DNA from: a virus
DNA length: 22,797 nucleotides
IMG/VR virus record: IMGVR_UViG_3300025669_000722
Location: 1-22,797 of that record
Strand: one strand, 5' to 3'
A program made the position numbers and the translations under genes. Within the stretch, counting starts at the first letter, position 1. Every line of letters begins with the position of its first letter. Of this stretch, positions 5,666-21,155 are shown in pieces. The notes beneath the pieces were generated by a model. The model did no database searches. It was not told where the DNA came from and was given only the letters and a program-made list of their open reading frames with translations.

Positions 5666-6529
5666 ATGTCAAATGAAACCACCTCGACCAGTCTGGCTGG
5701 TCTAGTAGAAGATATTTCTGGCGAATCTATCATGATCCTGCAGGACAACGCAGGGTTGTTGGAATTGGTTCGTCATGTTGACACAATGGGAACCCCTGGA
5801 AAGACTTATGACTTTCCAATTTTTGGTGAAGTGGCAAGCACTGATGTGACTCAGGTTGCAGAAGGAACTGATCATTCCACAAACAAAGAAATCTCAAATG
5901 CAGACACTGCTGCAACAGTTGATGAGCATGTGATCATGGCAGTTGCAACCAAGCTTGCAGTTGAAAGTGCAAGGGAAGATGTTGTTGCTGAAATCAGCAC
6001 ACTGTTTGCTTCTGCAATGAATGCGAAACTTGAAGATGATATTGTTGGTCTTGCTTCAGGTTTCACACAGACAGTCTGTGGTGCTGCAGTATCAATGACC
6101 ATTGACCACTGGTATGATGCAATCAGACAGATCAAAGCTGCCAATGGCAACTTGCGTGATCTTGCTGCTGCATTGTCACCATTATCATACTATGGTTCCA
6201 AGGGTCTTCGTGCCCTTCTGGTCAGCACATCTGCAATCAATGCAGGGACAGTTGCACAGAAATGGTTGGAAATGGGAATGGTTGACACACAGTTTGGAAT
6301 GCCTGCTGTCATCTCAAATGAGATTGCTGAAGATGTTGGAACATCAGATGTGTCAGCAAACATGATCTGGACAAGGGGCGCAATTGGTGTCCATACCAAG
6401 GATCTGATGGATGTTGAAGAACAACCAAATGCTTCCTTGCGTGGAAAAGAAATTGTTGCCACAGGTCGCTGGAAACAGGTTGAATTAGTAGATGCATGGG
6501 GTGTCTACTTTGCATGTAACAATGCATAA
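5666..6529 (+). CDS. Major capsid protein (HK97-fold type)
   Basis: 287 aa. Forms the capsid shell by assembling around the scaffold upstream. The sequence is Ala-rich with alternating acidic helices. A helical stretch (ISTLFASAMNAKLEDDIVGLASG) resembles the HK97 spine helix, and the C-terminal half (GMPAVISNEIAEDV..., ANMIWTRGAIGVHTKDL...) looks like the P- and A-domain strands of HK97-fold capsid proteins. There is no long N-terminal delta domain, consistent with a separate scaffold. Arg codons here are mainly CGT/CGC, unlike the AGA/AGG of neighbours, as expected for the most highly expressed gene. It is followed by a stem-loop. The identity is from position and fold-like pattern. Confidence 0.82.
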   Translation: MSNETTSTSLAGLVEDISGESIMILQDNAGLLELVRHVDTMGTPGKTYDFPIFGEVASTDVTQVAEGTDHSTNKEISNADTAATVDEHVIMAVATKLAVESAREDVVAEISTLFASAMNAKLEDDIVGLASGFTQTVCGAAVSMTIDHWYDAIRQIKAANGNLRDLAAALSPLSYYGSKGLRALLVSTSAINAGTVAQKWLEMGMVDTQFGMPAVISNEIAEDVGTSDVSANMIWTRGAIGVHTKDLMDVEEQPNASLRGKEIVATGRWKQVELVDAWGVYFACNNA

Positions 6530-7042: not shown

Positions 7043-7237
7043 ATGTCAAACATGATCTATGAGAACTTCGGATTATCACCTGATGGAATCTTTGGACTGA
7101 AGATTGAAGTCAGACCTGCAGGAACAGGGATCACACCTATTGATTCAACAACTGGCAAAAGATTGTCAAGACCACAGATGGAACATGCCAAGACTGAACC
7201 TACCCAGGATGCAGTCAGATCGGTGGTGACATCATGA
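7043..7237 (+). CDS. Small 64-aa protein coupled to the head-fiber gene
   Basis: Unrecognised 64-residue protein (MSNMIYENFGLSPDGIFG...). AAGGGG lies upstream of the ATG, and the stop TGA lies inside an ATGA overlap with the 998-aa gene. Codon use matches the CpG-poor background. It has no membrane segment or metal motif. Confidence 0.65.
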   Translation: MSNMIYENFGLSPDGIFGLKIEVRPAGTGITPIDSTTGKRLSRPQMEHAKTEPTQDAVRSVVTS

Positions 7238-10230
7238 CAATGTCAGGCTATTTAGATTCAAGAGAATTCCAGAAGTTTGTTGAAGATGCACTTGGACAGA
7301 CTGCAATCAGGGTTCTGCTTTCAGGCAGTTCTTCCCTTGACAACTTGACCATTGGGACAATGTTGTATCAGTCCACTGAAATAGGAATAACTGCATCAGT
7401 CACACAGACCCAGGGACAGGGTGCCCTGACTAAGATGATCAACCAAGTTTCAGTTGTTGCCAATATAGATGACACAGTGACCCTGATGTCTGCCGTTGCA
7501 GGTGCAATGCAGTTGGTGATTAATGATGGCGACAACACAATGCAAATATTCCCTGCATCAGGTGACAACCTTGGTGAAGGTTTGAATATCCCCATCAGTC
7601 TTCAGGCAGGTGGAAGGGTTCGCTTTGATGCCTATGATGCAACCCATTGGGTGAAGGCAGGTGACATCAATGTTGAAGTTGAAGTGGGTTCAGGCGGCTC
7701 CGTAGCAGTAATCGAAGATGTAACAAGTCCAACTCTCGCAATTAGCGCATTGGGGAAGCTGTTTGATAAGAATGTGCTTTTGAGGACAGGGGATGATATT
7801 ACAGGGACAGCTACATCCACAAACTATGGTGATAAAAATGCAGTTACTGGTGGTGATGTTGTATTGGGAGCAGTAAATCTAAAAACTAATGGTATTACAG
7901 CAGGTACAGGAGGTCTATTCCTCCCTGCCGTCCCAAATGCGATTGCTACTATTTCATTTGGTATTGGAATTGATAAAGACACTGCTCTTGGAATGCAATA
8001 TGATTTAGATACAACTGGAGTCGTAGGTACTGAAGGTGCTATAAGGACTTATGATTCTATCTCAATAGGTGCTGAAACCGTTCTTTATGATATTGCAATC
8101 TTCAACCTAACCTCCCTCGGAACCCTAACAGCCGACCACGTTCAGATGATGAATGACTTGAACACGCTGTATGATTGGACAGCCTTTGCAGGCTCGGGAG
8201 CAGGTGGTATTCTTGATACAACTGATACTTGGGCATTGATTGGTACATGGATGGCAACTGAAGCAGACCGTGAAGCGTTCTTCGCCATTGTAATCCCCTC
8301 ACACGTTAGCAGTATGGACTCAGCTAAACTTGAGAGCATTACTAATATGGGTGGGAATTTAGCGGTGCTTAAAAATTCCCGATTTAGCTCATTAGCTGGC
8401 ACAACTGCCAGTGGTGTTATGATTAATATTGAAGATGGTTTAAATGTCTCGAATACAGTCGCAGGTACTTCCGAAGGTGTCTATGTAGACTATGCTATAA
8501 ACCCAAATACCGAATACTACCTTGGCTTTATTATGGGGGTAGTTACAGGAGAATCTCGTATAATCATCAGGTCACTTGACATAAATGGTGATATTGTTGC
8601 GACATTGTCCTCTCCTACTGTATCAGGTAATTATACGTTCACCTCAGATAGTGAAATATATAGCTTACGCCTCCAGTTTTATTGCACAATAGGTGCATCG
8701 GCACTTGGCTCAGTAAATTATACCAACATCCAACTCAACCAAGGCTCCACCGCAAACACCTACGCCACCCCACTTGATAATGGGATTACATTTGGTAGCC
8801 GTAGTGCGAATCAGTTGCCTGATGGTGATGCTGAGTATGATGGCTCTAAATGGGCAGGCGTGGCAATCATATCAACCAATCTATCTATTGTTGCCTTTGC
8901 CTCACAAGATACGATAACATCCTTCACCCCTCAGAATAGTGGATGGCATACCTTTGCATGTCGCAACCTTACGAGTGATGCAGGGACAGTCTCAGGCATA
9001 CTCAATGGCGTGACAGCAGGAGCCATTGCAGGAAACGCATCTCCCGCTTGGTCAGTTGACAAGGTTGAACTTGTTGCAGGCACAGCCTATGACTTTGAAG
9101 TTCGTGGTTCAGCAGATGACATCCAGTTCGATGCTATGATTATTGAAGGTGAATATACTCAGGCAGAGATTGACACGAGAGATTATGTAGCATACAAACC
9201 CCTTGAGCTATTGACTTGCCCAAACAACGCAGGGACTTCCACAGTCTCAGACGAATTGATTTCAATCAACGGTGTGCCGAATATTCTGCATAACGTTACT
9301 GATAATCGGACTGATAGTGGTGACCCTGAATTAGATACTACACTTGTCGCTCCCCCTGGAGATTTAATGGCTTCAGATGGTACAGCCAACTTCACAGATG
9401 AGAATGGTGCATTAACATTCGATACCGACCATTACGTTTATACCGTAACAACTGGAGCAAGCAAAGCGGGGTTCCTCGATGAAGGAACATTTGTTGTAGA
9501 CCGTAAATACATCGTTAGCGTTCTCGCCAAAGATGGGACGGGCGCAGGTGCTTCATTCAGAGTTAATCAACTTACCAACGCAGGGGCGGTCATTACAAAT
9601 GGTGCAACTGTTGTAGCCACCGCCGCTTATGGTCAGGCATTTGTCGAGTTTATTGCCACAGAGACAAACAATAAAATAGAGGTGGAGATTATCGCCGCTT
9701 CTGTTGCAGATGGCGAGACAGTCCTTTTTGATGACTTACTTGCTTATGTTTATAACATCCAAGAGAACCTTGCTCCCAATCTGGAAGACATCTCCGCTTT
9801 CTGTAGTGGCAGTCTAATCCAAGAGACTACTGAGGGACAGAATCACATTGTCTCGGTCAACGGACTCATGTTGAGTGTAGTGCATTATCAGGGCGTGCAG
9901 GGTGCTATTGATGGCACCAGGGAAGGTCTGCTTTCCAAGTTGAACAGGTCAGAACAAAGATTGACCTATGAATTCAAGGTTCCTTCAACAGGTGGTGTTG
10001 CTGCCAATTCAAATACATGGGTGCCATTCAGTGACATTGCAACCATGCCTGATCTTGTCAGCAGCATCAAGACCCTTGAAGAAACAATGGACACAAACAT
10101 TGATTCAGTGGATTACTATGACAATGGAATAGTGATCAATGCTGATGCCACTGGAACAGGTGCCGACGATGTCCTTGTTCATGCCTTGGTCATCAGTGGT
10201 GTTCCACTAATCATCCACACAATTGCATAG
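7234..10230 (+). CDS. Probable head fiber / decoration protein with carbohydrate-binding-like repeats
   Basis: 998 aa, the largest gene in the window. Residues ~1-150 form a beta-rich anchor (ITASVTQTQGQGALTK..., MQIFPASGDNLGEG, DAYDATHWVKAG), a pattern seen in phage virion proteins. After a GSGGSV linker come at least three jelly-roll-like units: around 380-510, ending TNIQLNQGSTANTYATPL, like the '..QLE.GS.AT.Y..' end of phage carbohydrate-binding modules; around 520-660, ending DAMIIEGEYTQAEI; and around 710-880. A native-type C-terminal domain (~889-998) closes it. Its place straight after the capsid genes suggests attachment to the head rather than to the tail tip, but a tail fiber placed out of order is possible. 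The middle has different base and codon use. An in-frame ATG at 7240 is an alternative start. Confidence 0.7.
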   Translation: MTMSGYLDSREFQKFVEDALGQTAIRVLLSGSSSLDNLTIGTMLYQSTEIGITASVTQTQGQGALTKMINQVSVVANIDDTVTLMSAVAGAMQLVINDGDNTMQIFPASGDNLGEGLNIPISLQAGGRVRFDAYDATHWVKAGDINVEVEVGSGGSVAVIEDVTSPTLAISALGKLFDKNVLLRTGDDITGTATSTNYGDKNAVTGGDVVLGAVNLKTNGITAGTGGLFLPAVPNAIATISFGIGIDKDTALGMQYDLDTTGVVGTEGAIRTYDSISIGAETVLYDIAIFNLTSLGTLTADHVQMMNDLNTLYDWTAFAGSGAGGILDTTDTWALIGTWMATEADREAFFAIVIPSHVSSMDSAKLESITNMGGNLAVLKNSRFSSLAGTTASGVMINIEDGLNVSNTVAGTSEGVYVDYAINPNTEYYLGFIMGVVTGESRIIIRSLDINGDIVATLSSPTVSGNYTFTSDSEIYSLRLQFYCTIGASALGSVNYTNIQLNQGSTANTYATPLDNGITFGSRSANQLPDGDAEYDGSKWAGVAIISTNLSIVAFASQDTITSFTPQNSGWHTFACRNLTSDAGTVSGILNGVTAGAIAGNASPAWSVDKVELVAGTAYDFEVRGSADDIQFDAMIIEGEYTQAEIDTRDYVAYKPLELLTCPNNAGTSTVSDELISINGVPNILHNVTDNRTDSGDPELDTTLVAPPGDLMASDGTANFTDENGALTFDTDHYVYTVTTGASKAGFLDEGTFVVDRKYIVSVLAKDGTGAGASFRVNQLTNAGAVITNGATVVATAAYGQAFVEFIATETNNKIEVEIIAASVADGETVLFDDLLAYVYNIQENLAPNLEDISAFCSGSLIQETTEGQNHIVSVNGLMLSVVHYQGVQGAIDGTREGLLSKLNRSEQRLTYEFKVPSTGGVAANSNTWVPFSDIATMPDLVSSIKTLEETMDTNIDSVDYYDNGIVINADATGTGADDVLVHALVISGVPLIIHTIA
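7690..9897 (+). other. Compositionally foreign segment inside the head-fiber gene
   Basis: By hand count about 74 CpG dinucleotides occur in 7681-9900 (29 in 7681-8700 and 45 in 8701-9900), against 4 in the preceding 480 bases, 2 in the following 360, and 8 in bases 1-1000. Codon choice changes too (CTC, CGT, TTA, ATA, GAG and GTA become common). The left edge falls at the GSGGSV linker codons and the right edge near 9897, so the swap keeps the N-terminal anchor and C-terminal domain in frame. This is best explained by recombinational exchange of a receptor- or glycan-binding core. Confidence 0.7.
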
Positions 10231-12926: not shown

Positions 12927-13346
12927 ATGACAGACTATGACCCAATAAGAAGCAGGGTTCTTGAAGGCATAAAGGAAACACTTCAGAGTGTGTCCAAGTA
13001 TGATGTCAAGATCAATGATGAAGACCAGGAAGGGTCAAGTGAATTCATCCTTATAAGCATTGAAGACAGTGTGACCATTGCCAAGAATGCAGGCTCACAC
13101 ACCAAAAGGGTTAAGGTCAATATAGAATATCACAACAGCAGGAAACCTGGCATGACTGATTCCATGATTCATATGATGGATGTCATCCAGGATCTGCTTG
13201 AAAAGAATTCAACCAAAAGATCATCAGCAGGGGTGCATCAATATTTTGATGGTGAAGTCAGCAACACTGACACAGACCCAGGTGATGAAGACAAGTGGGT
13301 CTTCATGTTCACCTATGATGCATCACATACAAAAGTCTATACTTAA
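12927..13346 (+). CDS. Tail terminator / tail completion-like protein
   Basis: 139 aa. The helical start (DPIRSRVLEGIKETLQ), a repeated beta pattern (EFILISIEDSVTIAKNAGSHTKRVKVNIEYHN) and a conserved-looking helix (MIHMMDVIQDLLEKN) fit the size and alpha/beta layout of siphovirus tail terminator or gp17-like completion proteins. It lies between the adaptor and the major tail protein, the expected place. It starts one base after the previous stop. Identity is by synteny. Confidence 0.55.
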   Translation: MTDYDPIRSRVLEGIKETLQSVSKYDVKINDEDQEGSSEFILISIEDSVTIAKNAGSHTKRVKVNIEYHNSRKPGMTDSMIHMMDVIQDLLEKNSTKRSSAGVHQYFDGEVSNTDTDPGDEDKWVFMFTYDASHTKVYT

Positions 13347-13360
13347 GAAAGGGACTTATC

Positions 13361-14371
13361 ATGGCAGCAGTTGATGTCAATACTTACAGCATGAAGGAAT
13401 TTCAGTTTGCAGCGAAACCTGAAGCTGAAATTGGAACCAAACTTGTCACAGCAATGCAACTGCTGAACCTGAATGGTGATGTAACAATTGCAAAGGAAGT
13501 TGTGCAAGACACCACACAAAGAAGTGGGAAAGGAAGGACACTGAAGGCAGCAGATGTCCACACCACAGACAAGGGTGGACAGAGAACTGTCATCACAGTC
13601 CCAATCATCCTTGACACCACAGTTGATGCAATGCTGCATGAAGGGGTGATGTGGGAAGCAGTTGGGGTTTCACCTGCATCACATGACATCATTTACAGCT
13701 ATGCGCCTGTGTCACAGAAACATGGTGACACACCTGACAGGGCAAATGACACATTCACTTGTTGCTTGATCAGTCCCATCACAGATGAATCAAGATATTG
13801 GGTTGGGGTTGTTCCTGAATCGATGACTGTTTCAATGGAAACAGGGGCAGATGGTGGAAGAAGAACAGCAAGCATTACCTTTGTGACAGCATACAGGGAA
13901 CTTGATGCTGCTGCTGCACCAACAGGAATGTCAGTCTATGGTGCTACTTTCCGTTATCTCTATGACTACACAACCAAGAAGTCTGTTGGTGGTGATGATA
14001 TTATTCCCAATAAAATTGAATACACAATCAACAATCCTGTGTCCTTCTCAGGTTTTCAGGGTGCCAGTGGTGATCCTGAAGTCATATCAAGGGCAGTCAA
14101 TGGTGGCAGAGTTGAAGTCAACATCATGGTTGGTGTGAAATATGATTCCAACACTGCTGAACATTGGGAGAATCAAAGGGATGGTGACATCTTTGCACTT
14201 GAATTCAGTGACAATGCAACATGGGCAAGTTCAACCTTTGGAATCAAGGCCGCATATTGCAAACTTGATTCAGCACCAACCCCAGGTGACACAGAAGCAG
14301 GTGCATTCCAGGATCTGTCCTTCATGTGTACTGGTTCAACAACAGGTGACTTGATTCAGATAGTGCCTTAA
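13361..14371 (+). CDS. Major tail (tube) protein
   Basis: 336 aa, beta-rich. Forms the stacked rings of the tail tube around the tape measure protein. Evidence: position between the terminator-like gene and the tail assembly chaperone; Thr/Ser/Val-rich strands (RYWVGVVPESMTVSMETGADGGRRTASITFVTAY is typical of tube proteins); GAAAGGGA upstream of the ATG. At 336 aa it is longer than the ~200-aa minimal tube, so an extra domain is likely, perhaps the C-terminal ~130 residues. A stem-loop follows the gene. Confidence 0.75.
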   Translation: MAAVDVNTYSMKEFQFAAKPEAEIGTKLVTAMQLLNLNGDVTIAKEVVQDTTQRSGKGRTLKAADVHTTDKGGQRTVITVPIILDTTVDAMLHEGVMWEAVGVSPASHDIIYSYAPVSQKHGDTPDRANDTFTCCLISPITDESRYWVGVVPESMTVSMETGADGGRRTASITFVTAYRELDAAAAPTGMSVYGATFRYLYDYTTKKSVGGDDIIPNKIEYTINNPVSFSGFQGASGDPEVISRAVNGGRVEVNIMVGVKYDSNTAEHWENQRDGDIFALEFSDNATWASSTFGIKAAYCKLDSAPTPGDTEAGAFQDLSFMCTGSTTGDLIQIVP

Positions 14372-14388
14372 ATTATAAACCTCCTCGA

Positions 14389-14419
14389 ATCCCCTGCTTT
14401 AACTTTTAAAGTAGGGGAT
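14389..14419 (+). terminator. Strong stem-loop after the major tail gene
   Basis: ATCCCCTGCTTTAA (14389-14402) pairs with TTAAAGTAGGGGAT (14406-14419) around a CTT loop: 14 pairs with one G-T wobble. No T run follows (CCAAATG). It is therefore more likely a leaky terminator, processing site or 3' stabiliser that lets tail tube mRNA exceed the downstream tail genes. It is the counterpart of the stem-loop after the capsid gene. Confidence 0.6.
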
Positions 14420-14451
14420 CCAAATGTTCATTAATTGTGAAAGGGAAACGC

Positions 14452-14766
14452 ATGGAAAAGAAGAAAACGTTAACAGCAGCACAGAAACAACAGGCTGCAC
14501 TTGACAAATGGAAGAAGGAAGTCTTGCCAGGGATAGAACTGAAGGTCATGGAATTTCCTGCACGAATCAAGATTCAGTCAATGATGTCCAGGGGTGTTGA
14601 TGCAACAACCATCTGTGGACAAGCTGCTTGCCAGGGATTGACAGGGAAGTTCATTGAAGACCTTGATGAAGAAGACCTGCCAATCTTCAAACAATACACT
14701 GACAAGCAGATCATGTTAATTGGTGGAAGGGTCATAGATGTATCAGGAAACCCTGGGTCAGACTAA
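14452..14766 (+). CDS. Tail assembly chaperone, G-type product
   Basis: 104-aa zero-frame product, equivalent to lambda gpG, which coats the tape measure during tail assembly. Charged helical N-terminus (MEKKKTLTAAQKQQAALDKWKKEVLPG), then a compact helical domain. It sits between major tail and tape measure genes. ATG 14452 is chosen because AAAGGGAAAC lies just upstream; a GTG at 14437 precedes that Shine-Dalgarno. Near its 3' end lies a slippery heptamer that would divert a fraction of ribosomes into a second frame, giving a 227-aa fusion. Confidence 0.8.
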   Translation: MEKKKTLTAAQKQQAALDKWKKEVLPGIELKVMEFPARIKIQSMMSRGVDATTICGQAACQGLTGKFIEDLDEEDLPIFKQYTDKQIMLIGGRVIDVSGNPGSD

Positions 14767-14796
14767 GCTTTTCTTGTTGGGTTGCAAAGCTTGGTC
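14748..14796 (+). promoter_or_regulatory. Programmed -1 ribosomal frameshift signal (slippery site plus stem-loop)
   Basis: The heptamer AAACCCT (14748-14754) has X-XXY-YYZ form in the G frame (A AAC CCT), so both tRNAs can re-pair after a -1 slip (AAC to AAA, CCT to CCC). Six bases later GACTAAGCTTT (14761-14771) can pair with AAAGCTTGGTC (14786-14796): eleven base pairs with one wobble and a 14-base loop. The zero-frame stop TAA is inside this stem. It is the only X-XXY-YYZ site in the overlap of the two frames (14703-14766). Confidence 0.87.
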
Positions 14797-15134
14797 TTCC
14801 AAAGAATGCAGATGGTTGGAGACAACCACCATTCAACTTTCAAGACCCCCACACTGGTCAGAACATAGTTGTCAATGATGTCATTGATCAGCACAGAATA
14901 TTCAATTCCTGGGTCAAGGATCAGTTTGAATTCAGTTTATTCCTTGCCCACCCAAGCACCTTCATTGATTCAGGGATTCAGGCAGTCATTAAAAGACTTC
15001 GGTATTGTGAAAGGTTCCATTGCAGTCCCTTCCCTGGGGATTATTCAACACACCCTGAATGGTGGAAGCAGGCACTTATAATCATGGACAATGCATTCAT
15101 TGATGCTGAAGCATTCAAACAGAAGAAGGTCTGA
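14754..15134 (+). CDS. Tail assembly chaperone, T-type extension reached by -1 frameshift
   Basis: A frame open from 14703 to the TGA at 15132-15134 with no good start of its own. Joined as 14452..14754 and 14754..15134 it gives a 227-aa G-T fusion: 101 zero-frame residues, then WVRLSFSCWVAKLGLPK... to ...DAEAFKQKKV. The extension (126 codons) uses the genome's normal codons throughout and is rich in aromatic residues (HPEWWKQALIIMDNAF). This is the lambda gpG/gpGT arrangement: a minor fusion that links tape measure and tube protein. The stop is two bases before the tape measure ATG. It fills what would otherwise be a 370-base gap. Confidence 0.85.
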   Translation, partial: WVRLSFSCWVAKLGLPKNADGWRQPPFNFQDPHTGQNIVVNDVIDQHRIFNSWVKDQFEFSLFLAHPSTFIDSGIQAVIKRLRYCERFHCSPFPGDYSTHPEWWKQALIIMDNAFIDAEAFKQKKV

Positions 15135-15136
15135 TC

Positions 15137-16756
15137 ATGGCAAACATTGTTGAAATACTATTCAAGCAAACAGGTGCAACAAAAGTTGCTTCTTCAACAG
15201 GGAAGGTCACCAAGTCCACAAAAGACCTGACTGCAGCTGCATTGAAATATACAGGTGCAGCAGTTGCAGTCCTTGCCATTGGGAAGAAGATCATTGATTC
15301 CTATGGTGTCCAGGAACTTGCTGAATCAAATCTTCAGTCTGCCCTTGGTCATACAAATGAAAAGCTACTTGACCAAGCTTCAGCACTTCAGAAGGTTTCA
15401 AAGTATGGTGATGAACAGATCATTGCAATGCAAGCACTCGCATCCAACATGGGAATCACTGAAGACAAGATTGGTGACACAACTGAAATGGCAATTGGTC
15501 TTGCTGAAGCTTTGAACCTTGACTTGAACATGGCAATGAAAGCAGCAGCAGGTGCCATTCAGGGTGACACTAATATGTTGACCCGATATATTCCATTATT
15601 AAAAACAACCACAGACCAATCTGAAAAGCTTGCCATTGTCCAGGAAGCTGCAGCCAAGGGTTTGAAACAATCTGCTGCTGCTGCTGAAACAGTTTCAGGG
15701 CAAATGAATCAGGCAACAATGGCAATAGGTGATGCAGGGGAAGCAATAGGAAAATCATTCGCAGAACCTGTCAGACTTGCAGCAGCAGGTGTTGCTTGGC
15801 TTGCTGAAGGGTTCTCATCATTCCTTGAAGTGATTGGCAGGGTGGACACAGGGACACTAACCCTTGAACAAAGGATTACAGGTCTGAGTGACATCATTGC
15901 AAACCAATACATTCTAAGTGCTGATGAAATGACAGCAGCATTCCAAAGACTTGGCATGGGTGCCTTTGATTCAACTGACATATTTGGGGAGATGCAAAGG
16001 GTTCAAACTGAACTGACTGAAGCACAGACACAAGCAGTTGTAGTGACAGAAGAACACACAGCAGTTGTGACCCTAAGTGCTGAAGCAACCTTCCTTGCAC
16101 TGGAAGCAACTGAATCACTCACTCTTGCATATGCACAGCAAGCACTCAAGATCCATGATGTCAACAAGGCACAGGAACAATTGGTCAAACTTGGGAAGGA
16201 AGGTGCAACCCAATTCAAAGCAACAGCAGCACCTGTCAATGATCTGACCACAGACTTCCAGAAGTTTGAATCAGGTTCCAAGCTTGCCTTTGAAAGTGCA
16301 GGCAATGCAGCAACAGCAGCTTCAGAAATAATTGCAGCAGCAGCAGGTGATGACAAGGAAAGACAAATCCTGGCAATGAGGATTGCACAGATTGCAGCCT
16401 TGATCAACACAGCGCAGGGTGTCACAAAGGCACTGGCAGCATCACCACCCCCTTTCAACTTTATTAACGCAGCAGCAGTGGGTGCAGCAGGGGCAATGCA
16501 GGTTTCAGCAATCCAGGGTGCAATCAATCAGGCAAGGTCAGCAGCAACAGGTCTTGATGAAGTATTTGACAGACCCACACTGATTGAAGTGGGTGACCAG
16601 AGACAAGGTGAACGTGTCCAGATCACCCCTGAAGGTGGGGAAGCAGCAGGGATGGGTTCAATCAATATTGTCATCAACAGTCCAATCACTTATCCGGGAT
16701 TCACAAGGGATGTCATCCTTCCTGAAATCAGAGAAGCACTAAGGCTTGGCATATGA
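15137..16756 (+). CDS. Tape measure protein (short)
   Basis: 539 aa. Sets tail length and runs through the tube. It is Ala/Gln/Thr-rich with long helices. A hydrophobic segment near the N-terminus (AAALKYTGAAVAVLAIGKKII, about 32-52) and another Ala-rich one near 430-470 are typical. The repeat-like middle (LASNMGITEDKIGDTTEMAIGLAEALNLDLNMAMKAAAGAIQGDTNML) is the conserved TMP helical block. The C-terminus (VINSPITYPGFTRDVILPEIREALRLG) is also TMP-like. At about 0.15 nm per residue the tail would be roughly 80 nm, on the short side for a siphovirus. AGAAGG precedes the ATG, and the end overlaps the next gene in ATGA. Confidence 0.88.
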   Translation: MANIVEILFKQTGATKVASSTGKVTKSTKDLTAAALKYTGAAVAVLAIGKKIIDSYGVQELAESNLQSALGHTNEKLLDQASALQKVSKYGDEQIIAMQALASNMGITEDKIGDTTEMAIGLAEALNLDLNMAMKAAAGAIQGDTNMLTRYIPLLKTTTDQSEKLAIVQEAAAKGLKQSAAAAETVSGQMNQATMAIGDAGEAIGKSFAEPVRLAAAGVAWLAEGFSSFLEVIGRVDTGTLTLEQRITGLSDIIANQYILSADEMTAAFQRLGMGAFDSTDIFGEMQRVQTELTEAQTQAVVVTEEHTAVVTLSAEATFLALEATESLTLAYAQQALKIHDVNKAQEQLVKLGKEGATQFKATAAPVNDLTTDFQKFESGSKLAFESAGNAATAASEIIAAAAGDDKERQILAMRIAQIAALINTAQGVTKALAASPPPFNFINAAAVGAAGAMQVSAIQGAINQARSAATGLDEVFDRPTLIEVGDQRQGERVQITPEGGEAAGMGSINIVINSPITYPGFTRDVILPEIREALRLGI

Positions 16757-20235: not shown

Positions 20236-20274
20236 ATGATCAGGAATCAATCTAATCAAAAGGAAGACTCATGA
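20236..20274 (+). CDS. Possible 12-codon leader ORF coupled to the ERF gene
   Basis: ATG 20236 opens MIRNQSNQKEDS and stops at a TGA that shares bases with the ERF start (ATGA). It has its own Shine-Dalgarno (AAAGGAAGA at 20221-20229) as strong as that of ERF (AAAAGGAAGA), directly after the 3' arm of the stem-loop. Translational coupling or a regulatory leader is possible. Chance is the alternative at this length. Confidence 0.35.
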   Translation: MIRNQSNQKEDS

Positions 20275-21155
20275 CAACAAAAACAATTCAAGAAGCATTG
20301 GGTGATATTCAAGTCAATATGAAGGCACCCAAGACCCAGGTGAATGACTTTGGTGGTTATTCATTCAGGTCTGCTGAAGACATCTTAAATGCTGCAAAAC
20401 CTTTTATCAAGAAGCATAAATGCATTCTATTATTGAATGATGAATTGGTTCTAATGATGGACAGGTTCTATGTCAAGGCAACTGCCAAGCTGATGAAGGG
20501 TGAAGAATCAATCAGTGTTGATGCATTTGCAAGGGAAACAGAAAATAAGAAGGGCATGGATGAAGCACAGATCACTGGTTCTGCTTCTTCATATGCAAGA
20601 AAGTATGCACTGAATGGACTGTTCTGCATTGATGATGTCAAGGATGCTGACAACCATGACAACAGTGATCACACACCAGCACCCAAGAAGCAACAGAATA
20701 GCACACAGCCCCCTTCAGGGTCTTCAGGTTCCATTTCAAGAGATGACTTCCCTGGGTTTGGTAAGCACAAACAAGGTGGTGATGATCCAAAGATGTGGAA
20801 GGAAGTGCCCAAACATTATCTTGAATGGTTGTCAACTGCTGACAAGACCAGGGATGATGTCAAAGCATTTGTGATTGCTGAACTGAAATTCAGGGCAGAA
20901 GACCCACCTGCACCAAAGGTGTCAATGGCAGATAAGATTGCAGCATTTGAAACCATATTGAATGGTGCTGAAAAAGAATTTAGCAAGGCAGAATTGTTTT
21001 CAACCTTCTCAAGTTTCTTGATGAACGCATTCAAGACCACAGACATTCCAAACATTGCAGTTGAATTTGTTGAACATGCAGAAGCAATCCACCAGGATCT
21101 TCTGAACCTTCTGAAGCAAGAGAAGGCAGCACTTAAAGCAGGGCAAGATGACTGA
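20271..21155 (+). CDS. erf: ERF-family single-strand annealing recombinase with C-terminal ExoX-C-like motif
   Basis: 294 aa. Anneals complementary single strands in phage recombination. The ERF core is clear: YSFRSAEDILNAAKPF (30-45), DRFYVKATAKL (64-74), ISVDAFARE (81-89), KKGMDEAQITGSASSYARKYALNGLFCIDDVKDAD (93-127), all conserved positions of the family. After a polar linker (~128-157), FPGFGKHKQGGDDPKMWKEVPKHYLEWL (160-187) matches the FGKHKG...W.EVP..YL.WL motif of ExoX C-terminal-like/DUF3820 domains. A helical tail (215-294) may oligomerise or bind a partner. It is the first gene of the non-structural block. It has the lowest CpG seen (1 in 885 bases). Confidence 0.9.
   Translation: MTTKTIQEALGDIQVNMKAPKTQVNDFGGYSFRSAEDILNAAKPFIKKHKCILLLNDELVLMMDRFYVKATAKLMKGEESISVDAFARETENKKGMDEAQITGSASSYARKYALNGLFCIDDVKDADNHDNSDHTPAPKKQQNSTQPPSGSSGSISRDDFPGFGKHKQGGDDPKMWKEVPKHYLEWLSTADKTRDDVKAFVIAELKFRAEDPPAPKVSMADKIAAFETILNGAEKEFSKAELFSTFSSFLMNAFKTTDIPNIAVEFVEHAEAIHQDLLNLLKQEKAALKAGQDD

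Follow-up and report, generated by a model that had tools for sequence, protein, structure and literature searches.

A ribosome slipping back by one base at a fixed spot is a well-known trick of phages, and the slippery site of the G/GT gene pair of phage lambda is GGGAAAG. In the excerpted text of the review by Atkins and co-workers (PMC5009743), the lambda G-T frameshift is described as a low-level event (30:1 ratio) that is widely conserved across long-tailed phages even though their sequences are little alike, and certain tailed phages appear to shift without a stimulator. We describe what is very probably a site of -1 programmed ribosomal frameshifting of the kind known from lambda G/GT, located in the putative tail assembly chaperone gene of the virus represented by the IMG/VR record IMGVR_UViG_3300025669_000722. 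The record was analysed over its full length of 22,797 bases and is referred to below as the window; the tail genes and frameshift elements discussed here all lie on its plus strand.

Tail genes of the window and its relatives

The searches turned up three related IMG/VR records, and the frameshift region is included in two of them. A search with the capsid protein yielded L002 (83% identical) and L003, a search with the tail-tube-like protein yielded L005 (76% identical in that protein), which is the same record as L002, and a two-member alignment of the latter protein yielded L008 (60%). In L003, a 7.3-kb fragment, there was no match to the second reading frame described below. Neither tblastn with both halves of the gene and the tail-tube protein against 50,697 phage records nor blastn with positions 13361–15160 against phage records gave a match; scans of genome contigs revealed no relative, and several scans of viral contigs returned either nothing or the already known records. 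The comparison is between three sequences only, the window, L005 and L008. The nearest annotated relatives found for the window phage came from its major capsid protein (5666–6529), which shares 26–30% identity with its counterparts in four Pelagibacter phages and in one further phage.

The tail region begins with a probable tail terminator or completion gene (12927–13346, 139 aa; its Pfam match to Phage_tail_terminator_8 is weak, with an E of 0.001, under the curated cut-off), followed by a gene for the probable major tail (tube) protein (13361–14371, 336 aa), assigned from its position and from phrog_290 (tail, 'minor tail protein'), which it matches weakly at E 9e-5. The next open reading frame (14452–14766) encodes a putative short, gpG-like tail assembly chaperone of 104 aa, ends with TAA and is conserved in both relatives. 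It is overlapped by a -1 frame that is open from 14703 to the TGA ending at 15134 and whose conservation marks it as a putative gpT-like extension; the part that would be used (14754–15134) comprises 126 codons plus the stop. The 539-aa tape measure protein is encoded immediately downstream (15137–16756). The L005 and L008 orthologues of this protein hit phrog_167 and other tape measure families in PHROGs (E 6e-10 and 1e-8, respectively); the family search with the window's own protein produced only a weak unrelated match and no tape measure family. The gene pair thus lies between the genes for the major tail protein and the tape measure protein, the upstream tail-tube call being the weaker of the two. 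The tape measure matches in the relatives support the G/GT gene order that the preliminary description had proposed, as the 3' neighbour was identified by family search in both of them. Directly 3' of the tail genes, the window encodes an ERF-type single-strand annealing protein (20271–21155; Pfam E 9e-39).

At the protein level, searches of Pfam and PHROGs with an E cut-off as loose as 10 matched neither half to a tail chaperone family, and the structure models of the two halves had pLDDT values of 51 and 47, too low for use. Sequence similarity among such chaperone ORFs is low, so that a missed family match does not exclude membership (PMC5009743, in the excerpted text).

The base composition of these phages is unusual in its own right. 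The observed/expected ratio of CpG is 0.19 in the window (203 vs 1082), 0.035 in L005 (28 vs 797) and 0.073 in L008 (31 vs 425), an extreme shortage for double-stranded DNA phages with 44–49% GC. TpA is also low (0.40, 0.24 and 0.29, respectively), CA/TG is high and, in the window, TGCA is overrepresented (265 vs 84) and GGCC is scarce (4 vs 51). Literature searches, judged from titles only, returned no matching title on CpG shortage in phages; mutation bias of the host, methylation and restriction may be candidate causes. A gene for a 998-aa protein between the head and tail genes (7234–10230) partly escapes the shortage, with a CpG ratio of 0.99 at 9234–9733 and of 0.23–0.71 in its other 500-base steps, as though a module in it had been acquired recently. 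In the relative, most CpGs likewise fall in the corresponding area (L002 past 12.1 kb, L005 before 2.1 kb).

The slippery heptamer and the two reading frames

All main elements of the preliminary description, a 104-aa gene followed by a -1 open frame before the tape measure gene, are present. The two frames of the window overlap by 64 nt, and this overlap contains a single in-phase XXXYYYZ heptamer, AAACCCT (14748–14754), which is read as GGA AAC CCT; the heptamer had been pointed out earlier, and its A AAC CCT phase holds. In L005 and L008, the overlap of the two frames is only 28 nt, which confines the shift to that stretch in these phages.

According to the proposed mechanism, most ribosomes would stop at the TAA (14764–14766) and release the short form of 104 aa. 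In a minority, the tRNA-Asn and tRNA-Pro paired with AAC/CCT would slip back by one base onto AAA in the P site and CCC in the A site, plausibly helped by a downstream hairpin; these ribosomes would then read to position 15134, giving an extended form of 227 aa. The junction that the preliminary description predicted for this form, SGNP|WVRL, is correct. As in lambda, the short form would be expected to coat the tape measure protein, with the rare long form recruiting tail-tube subunits. The shift, its efficiency, the part played by the hairpin and the chaperone function are predictions.

Both frames are conserved as coding sequence. The N-terminal, 0-frame ORF of the window is 53% and 55% identical to those of L005 and L008, respectively, and the C-terminal -1 frame, which is in the same frame in all three phages, is 59% and 62% identical. 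In the latter, third codon positions are the most variable ones in all three pairs (e.g. 34/25/66). The preliminary description held that relatives in which both the heptamer and an open second frame are missing would speak against a frameshift site; the two relatives that cover the region keep both, along with the gene order and a stem 5–6 nt downstream. AAACCCT, its phase and its distance of 9 nt from the 0-frame stop are the same in all three phages, the stop being TGA in L005 and L008 and TAA in the window. This recurrence makes it vanishingly improbable that a one-base assembly or sequencing error has broken a continuous gene, as might be suspected of a window that is a single metagenomic contig, since the same frame break, with the stop equally far from the heptamer, is found in two other contigs.

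The conservation at the site extends to the nucleotide level. The site sequence GGAAACCCT, with the codons GGA-AAC-CCT, is identical across the three phages; among control triplets with conserved residues from three neighbouring genes, only 3 of 130 were fully identical, and in pairwise comparisons of these phages the share of codons for the same amino acid that match is only about one half to three quarters. In the window, 16 in-phase XXXYYYZ sites occur across 18 ORFs and three of them are AAACCCT, so that the heptamer taken alone is uninformative and it is the combination of features that carries information. At the chaperone site, the -1 frame continues for 128 further codons, and this site is the only one of the 16 with a stem score above 16, having the best stem. 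The other 15 heptamers were considered as rival sites and set aside, as none is followed by more than 46 further -1 codons; the two other AAACCCT sites have 30 and 2 such codons and no stem.

It is very unlikely that the two frames are separate genes, with ribosomes reinitiating close to the first stop, or being coupled to the upstream ORF there, to start the second ORF. The stop does adjoin the second frame, and in L008 there are two potential starts soon past it, GTG at 2406, which lies 42 nt into the open frame, and TTG at 2421, so that the lack of an own start in the overlapping -1 frame is clear in the window but less so in L008. In the window, however, the sole ATG, GTG or TTG of the frame is at 15084, which agrees with the earlier remark that it has no good start, and in L005 the first one is at 7155; the scan covered these three codons. 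The residues encoded from the slip site up to these positions are conserved in all three phages, and independent initiation at any ATG, GTG or TTG of the window frame cannot make them because they lie upstream. Separate genes would also leave the conserved heptamer without explanation.

A frameshift by other means is more plausible than two genes but still distinctly unlikely: RNA polymerase slippage, or the slip of a single tRNA on C CCT, might act here instead of a tandem slip of two tRNAs. Polymerase slippage needs runs of more than three identical bases, and the longest such run at the site is three, which makes it unlikely. tRNA-Asn pairs imperfectly with AAA, a point in favour of the single slip. 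The same can be said of the behaviour of C_CC.U, which, in the excerpted text of PMC4066793, belongs even by itself to the six tetramers that exceed background by a factor of four or more in E. coli when a strong pseudoknot is present. Against the single slip, the AAA half of the heptamer is kept in all three phages together with the GGA before AAC, although GGA makes up only 19% of the Gly codons of the window. We therefore favour the tandem slip on A AAC CCT.

Candidate stimulatory elements

A structure that stimulates -1 frameshifting is expected 5–9 nt downstream of the slippery site. The window has a candidate stem-loop at 14760–14797, in which 14760–14771 pairs with 14786–14797 (12 bp, one G-U) around a 14-nt loop. 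The preliminary description had correctly placed the 0-frame stop inside the stem, the TAA being in its 5' arm, but gave the stem 11 bp and a 6-base spacer where we find 12 bp and 5 nt. The stems of the window, L005 and L008 have 12, 7 and 12 bp and begin 5, 5 and 6 nt past the heptamer, with the arms AGACTAAGCTTT/AAAGCTTGGTCT, AGACTGA/TCAGTCT and GACTGACATTCA/TGGGTGTCAGTC, respectively. The 3' arm of the window lies a few bases farther downstream than those of its relatives, and it looks as if the start of the stem had been kept while the partner arm moved, three sequences being too few to prove this.

Equally good stems at the right place are rare: the fraction of positions that have one is 0.0009 for the window (0.09% of 7573 sampled window positions at the same spacing), 0.0228 for L005 and 0.0007 for L008. 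The plain folding-energy z-score of the window site is a modest -1.42; in the same order of phages, the folding energies rank at 1.5%, 6.4% and 0.2% for 45 nt and at 0.65%, 13% and 1.0% for 50 nt, so that the 50-nt fold of L005 is ordinary. Shuffling synonymous codons of the -1 frame gave marginal fractions of 0.049, 0.147 and 0.019, which became 0.20, 0.35 and 0.07 with the first five codons of that frame fixed. These shuffles weaken the stem as strong independent evidence. Its role as a stimulator is plausible, its statistics are no proof of it, and it argues for the site less strongly than do the heptamer and the frame.

A 14-nt element, GGTGGAAGGGTCAT (14722–14735), is the same in all three phages, ends 12 nt before the heptamer and is a possible internal Shine-Dalgarno-like upstream stimulator; the gene also holds another 14-nt and an 18-nt identical run, equal to or longer than this one.

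Comparison with known frameshift sites

AAACCCT is an unusual slip sequence for a G/GT-type frameshift. As the preliminary description noted, it is distinct from the GGGAAAG of lambda: the window phage has AAACCCT followed by a candidate hairpin, and its two halves show no detectable sequence similarity to known families. AAACCC was not found in the literature on tail assembly chaperones among the matches listed, a search that much literature lies outside, so that the motif cannot be called unreported. This locus extends the G/GT rule to a phage group that is uncultivated and divergent in sequence. The second half has no start codon and would escape gene finders, and homology searches found neither half outside the group of the window, L005 and L008; frame conservation is therefore the way to see it.

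The chaperone frameshifts of actinobacteriophages (PRFect, PMC10885494) likewise have an XXXYYYZ heptamer in the overlap near the 0-frame stop. In the excerpted text of that work, all four bases are found at each of the X, Y and Z positions; no case of AAACCCT is seen there, and the set is biased to high GC.

An E. coli survey that covered every one of the 64 heptamers of the form X_XXZ_ZZN (PMC4066793) includes A_AA.C_CC.U among its motifs. In the excerpts of this survey, CCN codons in the A site shift less well than UUN and AAN, and motifs that mix purines and pyrimidines are weak on average; with the IS3 pseudoknot, only A_AA.C_CC.A, G_GG.C_CC.A and C_CC.G_GG.C fall below threshold. Since AAACCCU is not one of these three, we infer that it is weak but active. 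An A-site codon from a class with poor shifting in E. coli would be in keeping with a product made only rarely. We suggest only tentatively, as a rather unlikely explanation, that this lineage settled on A AAC CCT and may keep it because the proline and asparagine tRNAs of its host slip there more readily, or because the 14-nt element and a hairpin whose 3' partner changes while its start is kept set a low, fixed ratio. The conserved AAACCCT offers a concrete, testable case of natural use of a motif that ranks as weak in the E. coli survey.
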